From: Williamsia serinedens
GTDB lineage: Bacteria > Actinomycetota > Actinomycetes > Mycobacteriales > Mycobacteriaceae
Assembly (NCBI RefSeq): GCF_024171725.1
Contig: NZ_JAMTCG010000003.1
Location: 372,001 to 436,000, forward strand
Length of the DNA stretch: 64,000 nucleotides
Direction: 5' to 3'
The notes beneath the pieces were generated by a model. The model ran no database searches and was not told the DNA's origin. It saw only the letters and a program-made list of their open reading frames with translations. Numbering within the stretch: position 1 is the stretch's first letter; every line of letters begins with the position of its first letter. This document shows, one piece after another, positions 9,332 to 50,475 of this stretch. Both the position numbers and the translations under genes were made by a program.

Positions 9332-10130
9332 GGCGGTCGAGGAGTCCCCGCGCGTCGAACGGCGCGTGCACCTTCACGTCGTTGTCGAAGTAGACGTGGA
9401 TGTCGCCGGTGTGCCGTCGGAGTGTGGTCGCCCAGTTGTCGAGCGACTTGTCGGAATAGCCGCTCACATACAGTTTCTCGTCGCCGTGCAGGCGGCAGTA
9501 CGTGAAGTCGGCAGTCTGCTCGTCCATCACCGGATAGCGACGCGCCGCGTCGGCGAGGACCAGGGCGACGTTCTGGTCACGGAGCAACCCGACCAGTTCG
9601 GGCGTCTCGAACGACGGGTGACGCACCTCGACGGCGTGCCGCAGCGGGCGGTCCTCGTCGATCTCCAGCCAGTCGCGACCGTCGAGACGCTGGTCGTGCC
9701 GCCGCGCGAGATCGGCTGCGGCAGCGGTGGTCCGCGGCAGGGAGTCGAGGAACGGGCCGAGCCGGTCGGGGTCGAACCGCATCGCCGGCGGCAGCTGCCA
9801 CAGGATCGGGCCCAGCTTCGGGCCGAGCGCCAGCACCCCGGACGCGAGGAAGTTCGCGACCGGGGTGTCGACGTCGCGCAGCTTCTTCATGTGCGTGACG
9901 AATCGCGGACCCTTCACCGCGAACACGAAGTCGTCGGGCGTCTCCGACGCCCAGCGTCGGAAGCTGTCCGGCTTCTGCAACGAGTAGAACGTGCCGTTGA
10001 TCTCCACCGAGTTCAGCGTCGACGACAGGTACTCCAACTCCCGCCGGTGGACGAGGCCCTTCGGGTAGAAGGTGCCCCGCCACGGCGGATAGAACCATCC
10101 CGACGTGCCCACACGAACCGTTCTCGTCAC
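9324..10130 (-). CDS. DUF72 domain protein (TIM-barrel-like)
   Basis: A 268-residue DUF72/YecE-family protein from GTG 10130, starting VTRTVRVGTSGWFYPPWRGTFYP, the family's opening motif. Other typical blocks are LSSTLNSVEINGTFYSL, FVFAVKGPRFVTHMKKL, LWQLPP and YCRLHGDEKLYVSGYSD. The start is ten bases after the VWA gene stop, so it is probably co-transcribed. An upstream in-frame start would overlap the VWA gene by about 90 bases and adds low-complexity sequence. The biochemical role of DUF72 is unknown. Confidence 0.88.
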   Translation of the reverse strand: MTRTVRVGTSGWFYPPWRGTFYPKGLVHRRELEYLSSTLNSVEINGTFYSLQKPDSFRRWASETPDDFVFAVKGPRFVTHMKKLRDVDTPVANFLASGVLALGPKLGPILWQLPPAMRFDPDRLGPFLDSLPRTTAAAADLARRHDQRLDGRDWLEIDEDRPLRHAVEVRHPSFETPELVGLLRDQNVALVLADAARRYPVMDEQTADFTYCRLHGDEKLYVSGYSDKSLDNWATTLRRHTGDIHVYFDNDVKVHAPFDARGLLDRLS

Positions 10131-10140
10131 GGTCGCAGGA

Positions 10141-12141
10141 CTACCCCCGACGACCCCGTCGTGAACCCAGGTAGTCCCCGACCACCGCGGCGCCGAGCCC
10201 GTCGATGTCGGGTGCGACGACGCGGCCACCGATACGACGGGCGATCTGGTCGACGAAACGCTCCAGGCTGGGATCGTCGCCCAGTCGGAAGATCGTCACC
10301 TGTGCGCCGAGCCGGGCGACCGCGTCGAGTTCACGGACGGTCATGGCCAGGGTCGCCGGATGCGGCGGGTAGTAGAAGAACGGTTCGCCGTCGGGTTCGA
10401 GGTGGGCGGTCGGCTCACCGTCGGTGACGATGAGGACGACGGGCTGCGCGTTCGGGTGCCGTCGCAGGTGCCGTCCGGCCAGCATGAGCGCGTGGTGCAG
10501 GTTGGTGCCCTGCTCCATGCGGGGCTGCAAGCCGGTGAGCTCGGCGATGTCGATGGTGCGGGCGTGGCGCCCGAAGGCGATCAGCGACAACTCGTCGTTG
10601 CGGAACCTGGTCGAGATCAGGTGGTTCAGCGCGACGGCGGTCCGCTTCATGGGCAGCCACCGTCCCTCCATCTCCATGGAGAAGGAGGTGTCGACGAGGA
10701 GCACGACAGCCGCCTTCGAGCGCGCCTCGGTCTCGGCGACCTCGACGTCACGGACGTCGATGCGGACACCCTCGCGAGCGAGGTCACCGGCGGCCTCCAG
10801 CCCACCCGGCGCCTCGGTGACGGTGCGCCGCACCGCGTTCCCGACGGTCGCGGTGACGTCCCACGGCTCGGTGTCGCCGAACTCCCACTCGCGGGTGGCC
10901 CCGGTCGGCTCACCCGACGCACCGGTGCGGCGGGTGGCGCGGTCACCCTTGCGGCCCGAGAGTTGTTCGGCGACATCGCGGAAGATCGACTGCCCGAGCT
11001 GCCGCATGGCCTTCGGCGACAACTGCAGGTTGCCGTCGGCGTCACGGTGGAAGATGTTCTGTTCCTTGAGCGCCTTCTCCAGCTCGGCGAGGGTGCGTGC
11101 GTCGGCGGACGCCTCGGGACCGAGCTGTCGCGCGAGTGCGTCGAGGTCGATGTCGTCCATCTGCGCGCCGGCGTACTGCTGCGACAGCTGTTCCGAGAGG
11201 GCCTCCAGCTCGGCGAGGTCGGACAGTGCGCCCGCGCCCTGCCCCATGCCCATCCCCTGCTCGCCGGTGAAATCTGCCGAGTCACCCCACCCCATGTCGG
11301 GGCGGGCCTGGCGCAGTTGCGAATCCATCTGCGCCAGTTGGTTCATCAGTTCCGGAGAGCCGAACGCCTGCTGCGCGAGCTGGTCGAGCTCGGCGCGCTG
11401 CTCGGGTGACAGGGAGTTGTAGAACGCCTGCGCCGCAGCAGCCCGCTTCGCCAGCGCCTCGACGAGTTCGTCCGTCGACTGCGGGTTGTCCGGGAAGTAC
11501 TGCCCGTGCTTGCCCATGAACTCGTCGAACTGCTCGGTCGTGTCCTCACCACGGTTGTGCGCGGCGAGCAGCTCGTTGAGGTCGGTGAGCATCTCCGAGA
11601 TCGCCTGACGGTCCGCGTCGGTCGCATTCTCCAGCGCGTCCTTCATGCCCTGGAAACGCTGGTCGAGCATCTCGCGGCCGAGCAGATCGGAGATCTTGTC
11701 GTAGTCGGCCTTGGCCTCCGGCGACCGCCACTCGTAGTCGGAGAGCTCCTGCACCGCCTGCGCCGTCGACGGCGGCAGGTTCCCGATCTGCATCTCGGCG
11801 AACCGCGCCTCGTCGTCGAGATCCCGTGCGAGCTGCTTGCGCTCGTTGAGGACCGCGCGATCGAGCAGCTCGCGGATCTCGGTGAACGTGCCGTCGAGGT
11901 TGTTCTTCTCCAGCAGTTCCTTACGGCGCTTGTTGATCTGCTCACGCAGCTTGTCCAGGCCGCGCATGTCCTGCGTCCCACGACGCAGGTACTCGCGCAT
12001 CGCGCGCTGCGGCGAGGCGCCGGCCATGATGTCCTCGCCGATCTCGTCGAGCGCGGACCGCAGATCGACCGGCGGGGCGAGCGGATCGGGTCCGCCACGG
12101 TATCGCTGATAGGAGGAGCGGTGGAATCTGTTGCGTGCCAT
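10141..12141 (-). CDS. VWA domain protein partnered with a MoxR-like ATPase (Rv0959-like)
   Basis: A 666-residue protein. The first about 440 residues are helical and Glu/Gln/Ala-rich (probably coiled-coil, including RAKRREL-like stretches). A von Willebrand A domain follows, with the MIDAS motif DTSFS near residue 480 and TDGEPTAH near 585. It lies 45 nt downstream of the AAA+ ATPase gene, the classic MoxR-VWA pairing in which the ATPase remodels a target and the VWA protein acts as a metal-dependent adaptor. Gene order matches Rv0958-Rv0959 of M. tuberculosis as I recall it. The target is unknown. Confidence 0.88.
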   Translation of the reverse strand: MARNRFHRSSYQRYRGGPDPLAPPVDLRSALDEIGEDIMAGASPQRAMREYLRRGTQDMRGLDKLREQINKRRKELLEKNNLDGTFTEIRELLDRAVLNERKQLARDLDDEARFAEMQIGNLPPSTAQAVQELSDYEWRSPEAKADYDKISDLLGREMLDQRFQGMKDALENATDADRQAISEMLTDLNELLAAHNRGEDTTEQFDEFMGKHGQYFPDNPQSTDELVEALAKRAAAAQAFYNSLSPEQRAELDQLAQQAFGSPELMNQLAQMDSQLRQARPDMGWGDSADFTGEQGMGMGQGAGALSDLAELEALSEQLSQQYAGAQMDDIDLDALARQLGPEASADARTLAELEKALKEQNIFHRDADGNLQLSPKAMRQLGQSIFRDVAEQLSGRKGDRATRRTGASGEPTGATREWEFGDTEPWDVTATVGNAVRRTVTEAPGGLEAAGDLAREGVRIDVRDVEVAETEARSKAAVVLLVDTSFSMEMEGRWLPMKRTAVALNHLISTRFRNDELSLIAFGRHARTIDIAELTGLQPRMEQGTNLHHALMLAGRHLRRHPNAQPVVLIVTDGEPTAHLEPDGEPFFYYPPHPATLAMTVRELDAVARLGAQVTIFRLGDDPSLERFVDQIARRIGGRVVAPDIDGLGAAVVGDYLGSRRGRRG

Positions 12142-44406: not shown

Positions 44407-44505
44407 GTCGCGACATACGGTGTGGACACCGACACACAACACTCCGGCCCCACGCTCACCACCCCGAGCACAGGCCGGACACATATGAGCAGGCCAGGAG
44501 ACCCC

Positions 44506-47500
44506 ATGACCCTCACGACCGAACCCACACCGCAGGGCGGCGACGCCCCGCAGCCGCGTGCGCGGTACTCCCTCGACGACCGCTACACGCGCTCGTCGGG
44601 CACCGTCTACCTGACGGGCATCCAGGCGCTGGTCCGCATGATCGGTGACCGCGCCCGCATCGACCGCCGCGCCGGTCTGCACACCGCCTCCTTCGTCTCC
44701 GGCTACGAGGGCTCCCCCCTCGCCGGCTTCGATCTCGAACTCGCCCGCCGTCGTGCCCTGCTCGCCCCGCTCGACGTCACGCACCGGCCCGCCCTCAACG
44801 AGGAGCTCGGCGCCACCTCCGTCATGGGCTCCCAGGTGGCCGCGCGCGTCGCCTCACTCGCCCCGACGGCCGACGGCACGCCCCGGGACGGCGTCGTCGG
44901 CTACTGGTACGGCAAGGCACCCGGCCTCGACCGCGCCTCCGACGCGCTGCGGCACGCGAACCTCATCGGCACCCACCATCGCGGCGGCGCGGTCGCGCTC
45001 GTCGGCGACGACCCCGGCGCGAAGAGCTCGACGGTCCCGTGCGCGTCGGAGATGGCCCTGGCCGACCTCTACATGCCGGTCCTCTATCCCGCCGACTCGC
45101 AGGACATCCTCGACTTCGGTGTCCATGCGGCAATCATGTCGCGGGTCTCGGGACTGTGGACGTCGCTGAAGATCTCGGCCCACGTCGCCGACGGAGCGTC
45201 CACCGCCGAGGTCTCGCCCGACCGCATCGTCCCCGACCTCGGGGCACTCGGCGACAGCCCCCACATCCCCAGCGGTCGCCTGCTCGGCGCGGAGCTGATG
45301 GAGCTCGAGCAGAACCAGCTGACCATCCGCAAGCCGCGCGCGGAGGAGTACGCGCGGCTGAACAGGCTGAACCGCATCGTGCAGCGGACCGCCGACGACC
45401 GCATAGGCATCGTCGCCGCCGGCAAGACCTATCTCGACGTGCGGGAGGCCTTGCGGCTCATCGGGATCGGCGACGACGAGCTCGGCCACCTCGGCATCCG
45501 CATCCTCAAGCTCGGGATGGTCTACCCGTTCGAGCGCTCGATCCTCGACGAGTTCGTGTCCGGTCTCGACGAGATCATCGTCGTCGAGGAGAAGCGCGAC
45601 TTCATCGAGACGATGATGCGCGACATCCTCTTCGACCGCGCCCGCGCCGGTGGGCTCGCGTCGATCGTCGGCAAGACCGACGAGCAGGGCGCCACCCTGT
45701 TCTCCCGCTTCGGCGAACTCGACGTCGACGCGGTCACCCGAGGTCTCGCGAACCGACTCGCCCGCGTGCACCACGTGCCCGCCGCCGAGGCCTGGCTGGA
45801 GCGACAGAGCCGTCGGCGCACCCGCATCGAACTCCCGCTCGCGGTGCGGACGCCCTACTTCTGCTCGGGCTGCCCGCACAACACTTCCACCAAGGTCACC
45901 CCCGACACCCTCGTCGGCGCCGGGATCGGCTGTCACGCCATGGTCCTGCTGATGGATCCCGCGCAGGTCGGGGACATCACCGGCGTCACCCAGATGGGCG
46001 GCGAAGGCGCCCAGTGGCTGGGCATCGCGCCGTTCGTCGGCGAGCAGCACTTCGTGCAGAACGTCGGCGACGGCACCTTCATGCACTCCGGGTCGCTCGC
46101 GCTGCGCGCGGCGGTGGCCTCCGGCGAGCGCATCACCTACAAGCTGCTCCACAACGGCACCGTGGCGATGACCGGCGGTCAGGACGCGGTCGGTGCGCGC
46201 GGGCTCGGCGAGCTCACCCGACTCCTCGTGGCGGAGGGCGTGTCCCGCGTCGTCGTCACCTCCGACGACCCCGACCGCACCCGGACACTCGACCTCGCGC
46301 CGGGCGTCTCGGTCCGCCACCGCGACGACATGCTGGCAGTGCAGACCGAACTCGCCGCCGTCGACGGCGTGACGGTTCTGGTGCACGACCAGCACTGCGC
46401 CGCCGAGAAGCGCCGTGGCCGCAAGCGGGGTACGACCCCCACCCCGACGACCCGCGTGATGATCAACGAGCGCATCTGCGAGGGCTGCGGCGACTGCGGG
46501 CAGAAGAGCAACTGCCTGTCGGTGCACCCGGTCCAGACCGAGTTCGGCCGCAAGACCCGCATCGACCAGAGCTCCTGCAACCTCGACATGTCCTGCCTGG
46601 ACGGCGACTGCCCGTCGTTCGTCACCGTCACCCCCGGATCGGGCGTCTCCCGTCGCCGCGTCGCGGACATCGGTGTCGACGTGCTCCCGGTGGCGCCGGC
46701 GGCATCGTCGAGGTTGTCGGAGCACGGGTTCCGGATGCGGACCACGGGCATCGGCGGCACCGGCGTGGTCACCGTCAGCCAGGTGCTCGCGACCGCGGCC
46801 TCGCTCGACGGCCTGCACGCCCGCACCGTCGACATGACCGGCCTGGCACAGAAGGGCGGGGCCGTCGTCGGCGACCTGAAGCTCGCGACGCGTCCGCACG
46901 TCGACCAGGCCGCGAAGGTCGCAACGGGTGACTGCGACCTCTACCTCGCCTGCGACCCGCTCGTCGGCGTCGACCCGGTGAACCTCAGGGTCGCCGATCC
47001 CGAGCTGACCGTCGCCGTCGTGTCGACCAGCGAGATCCCCACCGGCGCCATGGTGATCGACACCGCGGTCGGGTTCCCGGCGCGGTCGAGCATCGTCGAC
47101 CGGGTGACCGAACACGTCGCGCGGGCGATCTTCGTCGATGCGGCCGCGACCGCCACCGCCCTGTTCGGGGACGAGCAGTTCGCGAACATGCTGATGGTCG
47201 GCGTCGCATATCAGACCGGCGCCCTGCCGATCTCGGCCGCGGCGATCGAACGAGCCATCGGGGTGAACGGCGTCGCCGTCGACGCCAACGTCCAGGCGTT
47301 CCGCCGCGGGCGCCAGCTCGCCGCCGACCCCGAGGCGGTCACGGCCGCCGTCGACGCACTGCGGCCCCCTGCGCCGCTGAGCGAGCCGTCGGTGTTCGCG
47401 CGTGAGCAGATCGCTCGCTTCGGTGACCTCGACGAGGATCTGCGCTCGGCTCTGCTGACCCGGGTCGACGATCTGGTCGGCTACCAGAGCGAGCGCTACG

Positions 47501-48066
47501 CACGGCGATACGTCGACGACGTCCACGGGCTGTTTGTCGCCGAGCAGCGACTGGGGTCCGTGGCGGTGACCGGTGCGGCGGTACGCGGTCTGCACAAGCT
47601 GATGGCCTACAAGGACGAGTATGAGGTGGCCCGCCTGTCCGCCGACGACGAGTTCGCGCGCGAGGTCGCCGCCACGTTCGGTGACGACGCTCGCGTCGCC
47701 GTCCGGCTGCACCCGCCTGCGCTGCGCGCCATGGGCATGCGTCGCAAGATCGCGCTCGGACCGACCACGCAGAAGGCGCTGCACGGCCTGGCACGGTTCA
47801 AGCGGCTCCGCGGCACCGTACTCGACCCGTTCGGCCGCACCGAGATCCGACGCACCGAGCGCGACCTCGTCGACGAGTACCGGGCACTGGTCGCATGCGT
47901 CACGTCGGCGATCGCCGACGGCGGCGTCGGGGACGAGGACCTCACGGCCGCGGCCGCGCTCCTCGCCCTGCCCGACATGGTCCGTGGGTACGAGGACATC
48001 AAGATGGCCAACGTCGCCCGGTACCGCGAGGAGGTCGCCGCGCAGCGGCAGCGCCTCGGAATCTGA
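44506..48066 (+). CDS. Indolepyruvate:ferredoxin oxidoreductase family protein (fused alpha-beta-gamma form)
   Basis: A 1186-residue fused 2-ketoacid:ferredoxin oxidoreductase from ATG 44506 (AGGAG at 44495-44499; ATG 44485 is an alternative). The N-terminal pyrimidine domain (SGYEGSPLAGFDLEL) is followed by a TPP domain (PYFCSGCPHNTST, GDGTFMHSGSLALRAAV), an iron-sulfur segment (NERICEGCGDCGQKSNCLSVHP, SCLDGDCPSF), the gamma domain (TTGIGGTGVVTVSQVLATAASLDG) and a DUF6537-type tail. It decarboxylates aryl or branched 2-keto acids to acyl-CoA, reducing ferredoxin. Divergence from aacS suggests a shared role in amino-acid catabolism. Confidence 0.93.
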   Translation: MTLTTEPTPQGGDAPQPRARYSLDDRYTRSSGTVYLTGIQALVRMIGDRARIDRRAGLHTASFVSGYEGSPLAGFDLELARRRALLAPLDVTHRPALNEELGATSVMGSQVAARVASLAPTADGTPRDGVVGYWYGKAPGLDRASDALRHANLIGTHHRGGAVALVGDDPGAKSSTVPCASEMALADLYMPVLYPADSQDILDFGVHAAIMSRVSGLWTSLKISAHVADGASTAEVSPDRIVPDLGALGDSPHIPSGRLLGAELMELEQNQLTIRKPRAEEYARLNRLNRIVQRTADDRIGIVAAGKTYLDVREALRLIGIGDDELGHLGIRILKLGMVYPFERSILDEFVSGLDEIIVVEEKRDFIETMMRDILFDRARAGGLASIVGKTDEQGATLFSRFGELDVDAVTRGLANRLARVHHVPAAEAWLERQSRRRTRIELPLAVRTPYFCSGCPHNTSTKVTPDTLVGAGIGCHAMVLLMDPAQVGDITGVTQMGGEGAQWLGIAPFVGEQHFVQNVGDGTFMHSGSLALRAAVASGERITYKLLHNGTVAMTGGQDAVGARGLGELTRLLVAEGVSRVVVTSDDPDRTRTLDLAPGVSVRHRDDMLAVQTELAAVDGVTVLVHDQHCAAEKRRGRKRGTTPTPTTRVMINERICEGCGDCGQKSNCLSVHPVQTEFGRKTRIDQSSCNLDMSCLDGDCPSFVTVTPGSGVSRRRVADIGVDVLPVAPAASSRLSEHGFRMRTTGIGGTGVVTVSQVLATAASLDGLHARTVDMTGLAQKGGAVVGDLKLATRPHVDQAAKVATGDCDLYLACDPLVGVDPVNLRVADPELTVAVVSTSEIPTGAMVIDTAVGFPARSSIVDRVTEHVARAIFVDAAATATALFGDEQFANMLMVGVAYQTGALPISAAAIERAIGVNGVAVDANVQAFRRGRQLAADPEAVTAAVDALRPPAPLSEPSVFAREQIARFGDLDEDLRSALLTRVDDLVGYQSERYARRYVDDVHGLFVAEQRLGSVAVTGAAVRGLHKLMAYKDEYEVARLSADDEFAREVAATFGDDARVAVRLHPPALRAMGMRRKIALGPTTQKALHGLARFKRLRGTVLDPFGRTEIRRTERDLVDEYRALVACVTSAIADGGVGDEDLTAAAALLALPDMVRGYEDIKMANVARYREEVAAQRQRLGI

Positions 48067-48083
48067 TCCGTCCGTGACCGCGG

Positions 48084-48099
48084 CGAGACCCAGGTCTCG
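48084..48099. promoter_or_regulatory. Palindrome between the ferredoxin oxidoreductase and heliorhodopsin genes
   Basis: CGAGACC (48084-48090) and GGTCTCG (48093-48099) flank CA. A further GGAGACC lies near 48119-48125. It may be a terminator for the upstream gene or an operator for heliorhodopsin, about 60 nt before its -10. Confidence 0.4.
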
Positions 48100-48148
48100 A
48101 TCGCCCGGCGGTGTCGTCGGAGACCTGTACCGCCGACCGGGGCGGGCA

Positions 48149-48154
48149 TAGCGT
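48149..48154 (+). promoter_or_regulatory. -10 element (TAGCGT) of the heliorhodopsin gene
   Basis: TAGCGT, then seven bases, then ATG 48162, with no ribosome site. The hexamer equals that of the AAA+ gene promoter. Confidence 0.5.
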
Positions 48155-48161
48155 CCACCGC

Positions 48162-48932
48162 ATGACTGCGATCGCGAGCGGCGTGACCGACGAACGACTG
48201 GCAGGCCTGTGGCGGTGGAACATCGGGCTGACGGTCCTGCACGCCGCGCAGGCGGTCGCGGTGCTCGTGCTGGCGAACGGGTTCTCCATCACCGTCACCT
48301 CCACGTTCCCCGTCGGGCCGCCGGGTACCGCCCCGCCCGCCCCGGAGAAGTTGTTCGACGTCTCGATCGGCGTCGCGATCGCGGTGTTCCTCGCCCTGGC
48401 CGCGATCGACCACCTCGTCACCGCGACGGTCGGGCGCAGGCTCTACGAGAACGACCTCCGTCGCGGGATCAATCGGTTCCGATGGATCGAGTACTCGGTC
48501 AGCGCGTCGATCATGATCGTGCTGATCGCCTTCTACTTCGGCGTCACCAACATCGACGCGGTGATCGCGGTGTTCGGCGCGAACGTGGCGATGATCCTGT
48601 TCGGCTGGCTGCAGGAGCGCGCCAACCCACCCGGCCGCGAGCACACCACGATGCTGCCGTTCTGGTTCGGCTGCGTCGCCGGCGTCGTGCCGTGGATCGT
48701 CATCGTCGTCAACTTCGTCGGCGCGGGCAGTCGCGTCCCCGGGTTCGTCGTCGGGGTGTTCGTGTCCCTGCTGATCTTCTTCTCGACCTTCGCGGTCAAC
48801 CAGTGGTTGCAGTACCGCCAGATCGGTCCGTGGCGCAGCTACGCCTTCGGCGAGAAGTCCTACCTCGTGCTCAGCCTGATCGCGAAGTCACTCCTGGCCT
48901 GGCAGATCTTCGGCGGATCGTTGGCGTCGTGA
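48162..48932 (+). CDS. Heliorhodopsin
   Basis: A 256-residue seven-helix protein that I recognise as heliorhodopsin. The retinal Schiff-base lysine is Lys242 in helix 7 (LVLSLIAKSLLAWQIF, the hallmark SxxxK region). The counterion candidate is Glu110 in WIEYSVSASIMIVLIAFY. His27 (VLHAAQ) and His84 (AIDHLV) lie in helices 1 and 2. These match Glu107, Lys241, His23 and His80 of the reference heliorhodopsin 48C12 with offsets of one to four residues. Heliorhodopsins are inverted type (N-terminus inside), bind retinal, have slow photocycles and no accepted ion-pump role. No retinal-synthesis gene lies in the window. The promoter is nearly leaderless. Confidence 0.93.
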   Translation: MTAIASGVTDERLAGLWRWNIGLTVLHAAQAVAVLVLANGFSITVTSTFPVGPPGTAPPAPEKLFDVSIGVAIAVFLALAAIDHLVTATVGRRLYENDLRRGINRFRWIEYSVSASIMIVLIAFYFGVTNIDAVIAVFGANVAMILFGWLQERANPPGREHTTMLPFWFGCVAGVVPWIVIVVNFVGAGSRVPGFVVGVFVSLLIFFSTFAVNQWLQYRQIGPWRSYAFGEKSYLVLSLIAKSLLAWQIFGGSLAS

Positions 48933-49017
48933 CGACCCCCTCGGGAATTAGTTGGGGTTTACACGTAGTTGTAGCATGCACTCATACTTTTCCCGGATCG
49001 GATGAAGGGACTCTGCG
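48933..49017. promoter_or_regulatory. AT-rich promoter region of the ABC-2-like gene
   Basis: This 85-nt gap is the least GC-rich intergenic stretch nearby, with TTTACACG near 48957, TAGCAT near 48971 and CATACT near 48983 as candidate promoter elements. An AAGGGA ribosome site lies about ten bases before ATG 49018. No operator was recognised. Confidence 0.4.
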
Positions 49018-50475
49018 ATGCTCTCCTCGGTGACCACGCGGTGGCGCAAGCAGTACAGCAAGCTGCCCCCGGCGCTGCAGATGATCGGCCTCCAGATGTG
49101 GCTGCCGATCTTCTTCATGTTCATGTTCTGCTTCTGCTACCTGGGGGCGTTCCACTCGCCGAAGATCCACGACGCGCCGGTGGCGGTCGTGAACTCACCC
49201 GCGGCGTCGCAGTTCACGGACAAATTCACCCAGGCTTCGCCCGGCATGTTCGACTTCCGCTTCTATCAGGACACCGACCAGGCGACCGAGGCCGTCCGCG
49301 ACGGCAGCGCCGCGGCGGCGGTGCAGTTCCCGACCAGCCGGACGGGTGCCCCCGAGGTCACCATCGCCAGCGCCCACCAGTTCCAGGCCGCGCAGCTGAT
49401 GAAGTCGACGTTCACCACCGCGTTCAGCCAGGCCGGCACGACACCGCGGATCACCGACATCGCTCCCCTGCCGTCGGGTGACTCCTACGGCATGGGCGCG
49501 ATGTACCTGATGCTGTCCTGGTGCATCGGCGGCTACATGGTGGCCATGTTCATCGGCATGATGGGCAACCCGCTGAGCCACCTGACCCGCGTCGGGATCC
49601 TCGCCGGCGGGGCGTTGGTCGCGTCGGTGATCACCAACGTGCTGGCGTCGCTGGTGCTCGGCGTCTACAGCAGCGCACACATCTGGCAGATGATGGGGGT
49701 GTCGTTCCTGTGGATCCTCGCGATCGGACTCGCCGTGAACGGCCTCGCGTACTTCTTCGGTCGCTTCATCACCGCCATCGCGCTGACGATGTTCGTCTTC
49801 CTCTCCATCCCGTCGTCCGGCGCGGCCTACCCGGTGTGGATGGTCCCGCGGATCTTCGGTGATCTGAACCCGTTGGTCGTCGGACACGGCATCACCGAGA
49901 TGATCAAGCGTGTCCTGTACGGCGTCGGCGAGCCCTACTGGCAGCCGTTCCTCCTGATGGCGGGCTACGCGGTCCTCGGCATCGTGACGATGCTCGTCGG
50001 CAAGCGGTGGCGCGAGAGCAAGGAGTTCGACCGCATCCTCGCCGGCAAGACGACGATGATGGCGGCCGCCCAGGGCGCGATGATGCAGAAGGGCATGGCC
50101 GACCGCGAGCGGATCCTCGCCGCCCACGGCCTCGACTCCAACGCCGAGCCCATCGACGACGAGACCACTGACGACCGTGCGGCCGATGGGCGTACGACCG
50201 ACGACACGTCGGCCCCCAGCGACAGCCGCCGGAACGCGGAGCACGTCGATCACGACGACATGCGCGACGGAACTGACGGTGAGCGGCGTCGCCACTACTC
50301 CGTCGCCGACCTCGAGTCCGACTTCGGCGGTGACCCGATGCTGGGCGGGAACGGCCTCGGCCGCAGTGGGACCGGCGGTGCGCTCGCGACCGACGAGCTC
50401 GAACACCAGGTGCGCGAGATGATCAACCGACGCCGGGTGCCCGACGCATCGCTGAACGGACACTCCCGCCACTGA
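49018..50475 (+). CDS. ABC-2/YhgE-like (DUF3533-type) membrane protein
   Basis: A 485-residue protein with one helix near residues 28-48 and an extracytoplasmic domain (about 50-165: APVAVVNSPAASQFTDKF, DQATEAVRDGSAAAAVQFP). Five or so helices follow (160-345), and then a hydrophilic acidic tail to 485. This topology matches ABC-2 permeases of the YhgE/Pip and DUF3533 group. No ATPase gene is adjacent, so transport is unproven. It is downstream of heliorhodopsin but has its own promoter region. Confidence 0.75.
   Translation: MLSSVTTRWRKQYSKLPPALQMIGLQMWLPIFFMFMFCFCYLGAFHSPKIHDAPVAVVNSPAASQFTDKFTQASPGMFDFRFYQDTDQATEAVRDGSAAAAVQFPTSRTGAPEVTIASAHQFQAAQLMKSTFTTAFSQAGTTPRITDIAPLPSGDSYGMGAMYLMLSWCIGGYMVAMFIGMMGNPLSHLTRVGILAGGALVASVITNVLASLVLGVYSSAHIWQMMGVSFLWILAIGLAVNGLAYFFGRFITAIALTMFVFLSIPSSGAAYPVWMVPRIFGDLNPLVVGHGITEMIKRVLYGVGEPYWQPFLLMAGYAVLGIVTMLVGKRWRESKEFDRILAGKTTMMAAAQGAMMQKGMADRERILAAHGLDSNAEPIDDETTDDRAADGRTTDDTSAPSDSRRNAEHVDHDDMRDGTDGERRRHYSVADLESDFGGDPMLGGNGLGRSGTGGALATDELEHQVREMINRRRVPDASLNGHSRH

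Follow-up and report, generated by a model that had tools for sequence, protein, structure and literature searches.

The gene at positions 48162-48932 of the window, the 64,000-nucleotide stretch of Williamsia serinedens DNA analysed here, encodes a protein that, judging from its sequence and predicted structure, is a genuine heliorhodopsin (HeR) of the actinobacterial type, a further representative of an established family. The explanation that we favour, and that we regard as likely when taken as a whole, is that this HeR is a non-pumping light sensor which carries retinal on Lys242, is expressed from its own near-leaderless promoter and modulates a partner protein through a loop change. The source genome (labelled G000) consists of 4.64 Mb in 33 contigs and is 100% complete. 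The features of the window that bear on the gene are as follows.

44485..48066, + strand: fused oxidoreductase of the indolepyruvate ferredoxin oxidoreductase family (DUF6537; IOR), matching NF009589 (1518 bits), PF01558 and PF20169; start approximate
48085..48098, no strand assigned: inverted repeat GAGACC-CA-GGTCTC, a possible operator 5' of the HeR promoter, with an exact copy in the nearest relatives
48149..48154, + strand: putative -10 element TAGCGT (then C-N6-ATG) of a near-leaderless HeR promoter, seen in 6/6 Williamsia HeR genes
48162..48932, + strand: HeR gene, 256 aa, assigned by PF18761, NF038020, alignment with 48C12, AlphaFold and Foldseek
49018..50475, + strand: ABC-2 type membrane protein, PF12698 (ABC2_membrane_3), 53 bits
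50513..51001, + strand: DinB/mycothiol-S-transferase (MST) family protein, PF04978, 120 bits

The 771 bases of the gene form an open reading frame of 256 codons followed by a stop codon. The product matched the Pfam profile PF18761 along its entire length (profile positions 1-242 of 242) with 341.5 bits against a cut-off of 26.7, and the NCBIfam model NF038020 with 290 bits against a cut-off of 100. Both scores are far over the cut-offs, and the top families of the profile search were both heliorhodopsin rather than any other seven-helix family, which bears out the assignment made in an earlier, sequence-only reading of this DNA. A phmmer search against PDB chains yielded six distinct sequences at E-values of up to 1, every one of which is named heliorhodopsin. 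The top match (236.5 bits) was to 48C12 and its nanobody complex, and 48C12 and TaHeR were the nearest solved chains. Among named HeRs, the closest belong to Williamsia (95, 95, 86 and 80% identity), in agreement with the previous description of the host as a mycolic-acid actinomycete. The HeR of Williamsia herbipolensis ('208HeR'), which comes from the same genus and the same locus and shows 80% identity, is already in print, being named in PMC9529153 in the legend of a supplementary figure.

The residues singled out in the sequence-only reading as characteristic of HeR were recovered in the alignment with 48C12, which derives from an actinobacterial fosmid (PDB 6su3, 6su4, 6uh3) and has the same fold (TM-score 0.90) at 46% identity. 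His27, His84, Glu110 and Lys242 pair with His23, His80, Glu107 and Lys241 of 48C12, so that the Schiff-base lysine, the glutamate counterion and both histidines are shared, as are the internal polar network residues. Among 69 aligned HeRs (72 loci minus nine, plus the window and five further HeRs), these four residues and Arg107, Tyr111, Ser114, Glu152, Glu231, Ser238 and Trp247 are invariant (69/69). The loci left out of this set were L044, which has nine stops in a simple reading, and L057, L063, L078, L087 and L094-L097, most of which are partial or split matches. The motifs defined for HeRs in PMC9601134 and PMC8612252, SxxxK in helix 7 and ESL in helix 3, can be read from the sequence as Ser238-Lys242 and Glu110-Ser114-Leu121. 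An AlphaFold2 model, built from an alignment of 41 HeRs drawn from the 69 (mean pLDDT 94.1, pTM 0.89), contains seven membrane helices and places Lys242 in the last long helix (227-255), Glu110 in helix 105-125, His27 in helix 10-37 and His84 in helix 69-88; the predicted structure thus agrees with the proposal that helix 7 holds Lys242 and helix 3 holds Glu110. In a Foldseek search with this model, ten HeR chains ranked first (6su3: E-value 1.3e-20, TM-score 0.90, 1.9 A), and type-1 rhodopsins came after them with E-values of 5e-5 and weaker. The predicted inverted topology, with the N-terminus inside, fits the distribution of basic residues, since 11 Lys/Arg residues lie on the N-terminal side and 2 on the other side (loops plus three residues on each side).

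The sequence-only reading, which found no retinal-producing gene in the window, had concluded that retinal must either have a source outside this stretch or be taken up. The former can apply: a search of the whole genome detected a single Blh match, at G000:C2:158788-159555 on a contig other than that of the window (PF15461, 110 bits; TIGR03753, 119 bits against a cut-off of 95), so that in this strain there is no need to assume uptake. The blh gene lies back to back with a type-1 rhodopsin gene (PF01036, 144 bits) as follows.

L014:8614-9426 and 9617-10627, - and + strands: divergent pair of a type-1 rhodopsin (actinorhodopsin-like, DTE) and blh, at about 157.6-159.6 kb of G000:C2

This type-1 rhodopsin is nearest to the Rhodoluna actinorhodopsin 9hfk and to Gloeobacter rhodopsin. 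It reads VDWLLTVPLLLME and ADILAK, i.e. the DTE and DxxxK motifs that PMC9601134 gives for proteorhodopsins, and is, by this proton-pump motif, a predicted protein of the pump type. A perfect palindrome, CCAGTACTGG, is located between the two genes (L014:9550-9559) and may be a shared operator; it was not seen in the stretch examined of a second Williamsia genome, G062. In G062 (L139), the rhodopsin-blh pair appears by eye to lie in the same surroundings, namely an alpha/beta hydrolase flanking it on one side and a flavin monooxygenase on the other, families that were profiled in G000 only. In another Williamsia genome, G044 (L141:10151-10936, - strand), blh is accompanied by a different kind of type-1 rhodopsin, which is nearest to cryorhodopsins (8r0p, 8r0k; 107 bits). 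Concerning other steps of retinal supply, PF05834, the CrtY-type lycopene cyclase profile, matched strongly and over nearly its full length once in every one of the eight Williamsia genomes, with additional short matches; this profile also matches in 10 of 14 control genomes, and the short matches were therefore left out of the count. The lycopene cyclase-like protein of the present strain scored 182 bits against the TIGR01790 cut-off of 209.5 when the matched stretch alone was scored. The CrtYc/Yd-type lycopene cyclase (PF18916) was found in none of the eight Williamsia genomes. The RPE65 family was discarded as a retinal source, as it occurs in 125 of the 201 sampled genomes of the bacterial family and is too general; the profile search gave no match to it in the W. 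serinedens genome.

HeR is present in 11 of these 201 genomes, distributed over 5 of 31 genera, and in six of the eight Williamsia genomes. Blh is found in five of the 201, all among the 11 with HeR, and a type-1 rhodopsin over the cut-off occurs in the same five, a sixth (G070) being below the cut-off. The co-occurrence of Blh with HeR has a hypergeometric probability of 1.8e-7 when counted by genome, a count in which four of the five Blh genomes belong to one genus, and of 0.02 when counted by genus (2/31 within 5/31); a link between some HeRs and blh is already in print (PMC9385722). Within Williamsia, Blh and a type-1 rhodopsin are found in the same four genomes (G000, G018, G044 and G062), all of which have HeR, and two genomes, G107 and G120, gave no match to HeR, Blh, type-1 rhodopsin or the RPE65 family. 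Among the six HeR genomes of the family without Blh, an RPE65-family match was detected in G072, G122 and G180 and none in G079, G094 and G200. G200, a Rhodococcus-like genome (L018, L025) with no Blh match, contains two HeR genes that fall on different branches in the HeR tree. G011 (L145, L147), from yet another genus, contains HeR, Blh and two type-1 rhodopsins.

The two remaining Williamsia genomes, G094 (inferred to be W. deligens) and G079 (inferred to be W. herbipolensis, the source of 208HeR), have HeR but, unlike the genome of the window, gave no match to Blh, the RPE65 family or type-1 rhodopsins in genome profile searches. Their HeRs keep the key residues, and these apparently intact proteins would use scavenged retinal, retinal from an unrecognised route, or no retinal. 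That they carry another chromophore or none, or obtain retinal via an enzyme that is not recognised as such, which would untie HeR function from the Blh route, seems to us rather doubtful. For the present strain, it is similarly unlikely that HeR relies on environmental retinal while Blh serves the type-1 rhodopsin only, or that HeR works without retinal. The state of G079 and G094 is compatible with such an arrangement, as is the reliance on exogenous retinal reported for other actinobacteria in PMC12422013; however, this strain has blh, nothing known would keep the Blh product from HeR, and the five Blh genomes of the family all have HeR as well. In the reading that we prefer, the genome's own Blh would make retinal that is shared between HeR and the type-1 rhodopsin.

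In a maximum-likelihood tree of the 69 HeRs, the six Williamsia HeRs form one clade (support 100/99). The other HeRs of the bacterial family are scattered: a Rhodococcus qingshengii record, G180 and one copy of G200 group with Pseudonocardia, Rhodococcus AW25M09 groups with Nocardioides and Sanguibacter, G072 groups with Arachnia, and G011 has no resolved place. From this tree, we infer several acquisitions of HeR in the family, with a single one on the branch leading to these Williamsia.

The chromosomal site of the gene is conserved in the genus. All eight Williamsia loci keep the ketoacid oxidoreductase, the ABC-2 gene and SucDC (SucD and SucC, presumably succinyl-CoA ligase) in this order, and HeR lies between the oxidoreductase and the ABC-2 gene in six of them, the other two lacking HeR. 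Therefore, the notion of a block that interrupts housekeeping synteny does not apply within the genus, where HeR is instead a variable insert in a kept order. Genes for a TetR regulator and a carboxylesterase (families profiled on the G044 copies) are present at the locus in five of the eight genomes, following HeR in G062, preceding it in G044 and G079, and standing at the HeR-less loci of G107 and G120, and a MetN-type importer set (families taken from the G094 copy) is found further along the locus in three. By this comparison of gene orders, HeR is among the genes that vary at an otherwise conserved Williamsia site.

In the window, HeR is separated by 95 bases from the upstream oxidoreductase gene and by 85 bases from the ABC-2 gene, and the next genes beyond this pair encode an AMP-binding ligase and the MST/DinB protein. 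The adjacency of the oxidoreductase and the ABC-2 gene to HeR, to which the sequence-only reading drew attention, is thus real; a functional tie is not upheld, because both genes are also present in the two HeR-less genomes, G107 and G120, and they look like neighbours by address. Neither protein was found in the non-Williamsia HeR loci compared, many of which have short flanks. Synteny was also rejected as a guide to the partner: the flanking genes are genes of the genus, and when seven other genes of the window were queried against the HeR loci, the only recurrences at non-Williamsia loci were weak family matches, namely MST (33%, one genome, two loci), AACS (27%, two loci) and ADH (59%, one locus).

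The statement that HeR function is unknown across biology is outdated, as regulation of partner proteins, i.e. glutamine synthetase (PMC9529153), an ABC exporter (PMC11109279) and a photolyase (PMC9769723), and proton transport by viral HeRs have been published, as have two-component links (PMC8612252). No glutamine synthetase or photolyase gene adjoins HeR here, the adjacent genes being those for the oxidoreductase and the ABC-2 protein, and no OmrDE-type exporter with ATPase domains does either. Because the published partner types are not adjacent, the partner of this HeR is probably encoded elsewhere in the genome.

A light-dependent regulation of the adjacent ABC-2 protein, comparable to that of the multidrug exporter OmrDE by the HeR of Ornithinimicrobium cerasi, has to be weighed against this. 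In both cases HeR adjoins an ABC-transporter-type gene, and in Williamsia the two genes lie on the same strand in an order that is alike in all six HeR-bearing genomes (with the TetR and esterase genes between them in G062); a published HeR does modulate an ABC exporter (PMC11109279). However, PF12698 is the sole Pfam match of the ABC-2 protein, which shows no ATPase domain match, and the gene occurs in all eight Williamsia genomes, two of which lack HeR. In addition, a TAGTT element 5' of the ABC-2 gene is kept in all eight genomes with or without HeR, and the ABC-2 gene is therefore probably transcribed separately. We consider regulation of this neighbour improbable and continue to favour a partner encoded at another place. 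The element lies in an AT-rich stretch (48933-49017 of the window), and in G062, G107 and G120 the region reads ATAG-TTGTG-CTAT, an inverted repeat that is perhaps a regulator site.

The near-leaderless promoter proposed in the sequence-only reading is supported by conservation, since TAGCGTC is found exactly six bases 5' of the ATG in all six Williamsia HeR genes. TAGCGTC-N6-ATG has one match in the window; shuffled sequences gave a mean of 0.08 matches, and 8 of 100 contained at least one. TAGCGT agrees with TANNNT, which we take to be the actinobacterial -10 element, and presumably lies at a leaderless distance. The pattern is not supported as a HeR-wide trait: TANNNT at 5-8 bases from the start is present in the HeR frame in 11 of the 69 HeRs, 6 of which are from Williamsia (5 of 63 for the others), whereas the other two frames, counted without the stop filter applied to the HeR frame, gave 0 and 2 of 69. 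It is, in these alignments, a Williamsia trait and not a HeR trait. A scan of 47900-49100 for sigma-70 promoters and terminators found none of either, so that the argument for the HeR promoter is one of conservation. HeR is probably transcribed from this putative promoter as a single gene. The inverted repeat GAGACC-CA-GGTCTC precedes HeR in identical form here and in the two genomes most closely related to this one; it was absent from 137 of 147 locus stretches, and the other 10 are the same three places, repeated.

HeR is under purifying selection. Among G000, G094 and G044, the pairwise dN/dS values of HeR (0.072, 0.070 and 0.073; all values were computed on longest frames, not mapped starts) fall within the range of SucC/SucD (0.035-0.088) and are lower than those of the oxidoreductase (0.113-0.118) and the ABC-2 gene (0.166-0.224). 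In wider Williamsia pairs, HeR (0.175-0.240) exceeds SucC/SucD (0.051-0.142) and is similar to or lower than the oxidoreductase (0.165-0.307) and the ABC-2 gene (0.169-0.544); in the pair G079-G062, it is no lower than the oxidoreductase (0.165) or the ABC-2 gene (0.169). The pair G044-G094 includes a genome without Blh, but the time since Blh has been absent is not separable in this comparison, and the values therefore speak for constraint and not for a retinal-free function.

Retinal binding, the photocycle, the lack of pumping and the regulatory action of this HeR would be as in published HeRs. The proposed course begins with retinal from Blh, which would form a Schiff base on Lys242 and be isomerised there by green light. 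A proton would then move by way of Glu110 and His84 to the hydrogen-bond network inside the protein and return from it, so that there is no net transport, by analogy with the path from the Schiff base through Glu107 to His80 in 48C12 (PMC9726877). Of the network residues of that study that were checked, only Ser76 is not shared, its place being taken by Ala80 in the Williamsia protein; from the Ser76 calculation in PMC9726877, we infer that this substitution would shift the absorption to the red. Gln151, Gln214, Ala241 and the GPPG loop agree with the group of HeRs that absorbs above 550 nm (PMC7807009), and the predicted absorption is about 550-556 nm, in the green. Finally, a slow change of the cytoplasmic loops would modulate the partner protein. 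None of the neighbours examined accompanies HeR in other genera, so the proposed sensory role draws on published relatives.

Proton transport has been reported for several viral HeRs and for one more distant, non-viral HeR (PMC9448325), and the present protein might likewise be a light-driven proton transporter of the V2HeR3 type. This is very unlikely: the viral transporters need Glu191, with Trp195, whereas helix 6 of the Williamsia protein has no Asp or Glu, Phe200 occupies the place of Trp195, and the column of Glu191, which is ambiguous by one residue, holds Val at both candidate positions (196 and 197). Furthermore, the proton-pump motif is found in another protein of this genome, the type-1 rhodopsin, and, according to PMC9448325, earlier HeR studies found no ion transport, with which the structures of 48C12 and TaHeR agree. 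The lack of an acid in helix 6, Phe200 and the spectral-group residues together lead us to expect a green-absorbing, non-pumping sensor. Coupling of HeR to the ketoacid:ferredoxin oxidoreductase, i.e. light control of a redox enzyme, is most improbable despite their closeness, because the oxidoreductase is present in both HeR-less Williamsia genomes and has at least two genes between it and HeR in two of the six HeR-bearing ones (G044 and G079), and HeR has its own promoter pattern.

As a gene, this HeR is unexceptional within its established family. An actinorhodopsin and HeR in one genome, with common carotenoid genes and a patchy distribution of blh, have been described for Luna-1 actinobacteria (PMC12422013), and the Williamsia pattern is therefore not new in kind; Luna-1 are aquatic Microbacteriaceae, whereas Williamsia is a mycolic-acid genus in which Blh and the type-1 rhodopsin occur in the same four of eight genomes. 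No report of a type-1 rhodopsin-blh pair in Williamsia was found in the literature searched. The genus represents a natural series at one locus, with HeR, Blh and a type-1 rhodopsin in four of the eight genomes, HeR alone in two and none of them in two, and this series would allow tests of the HeR partner and of the retinal source by gene removal and by comparison of species.
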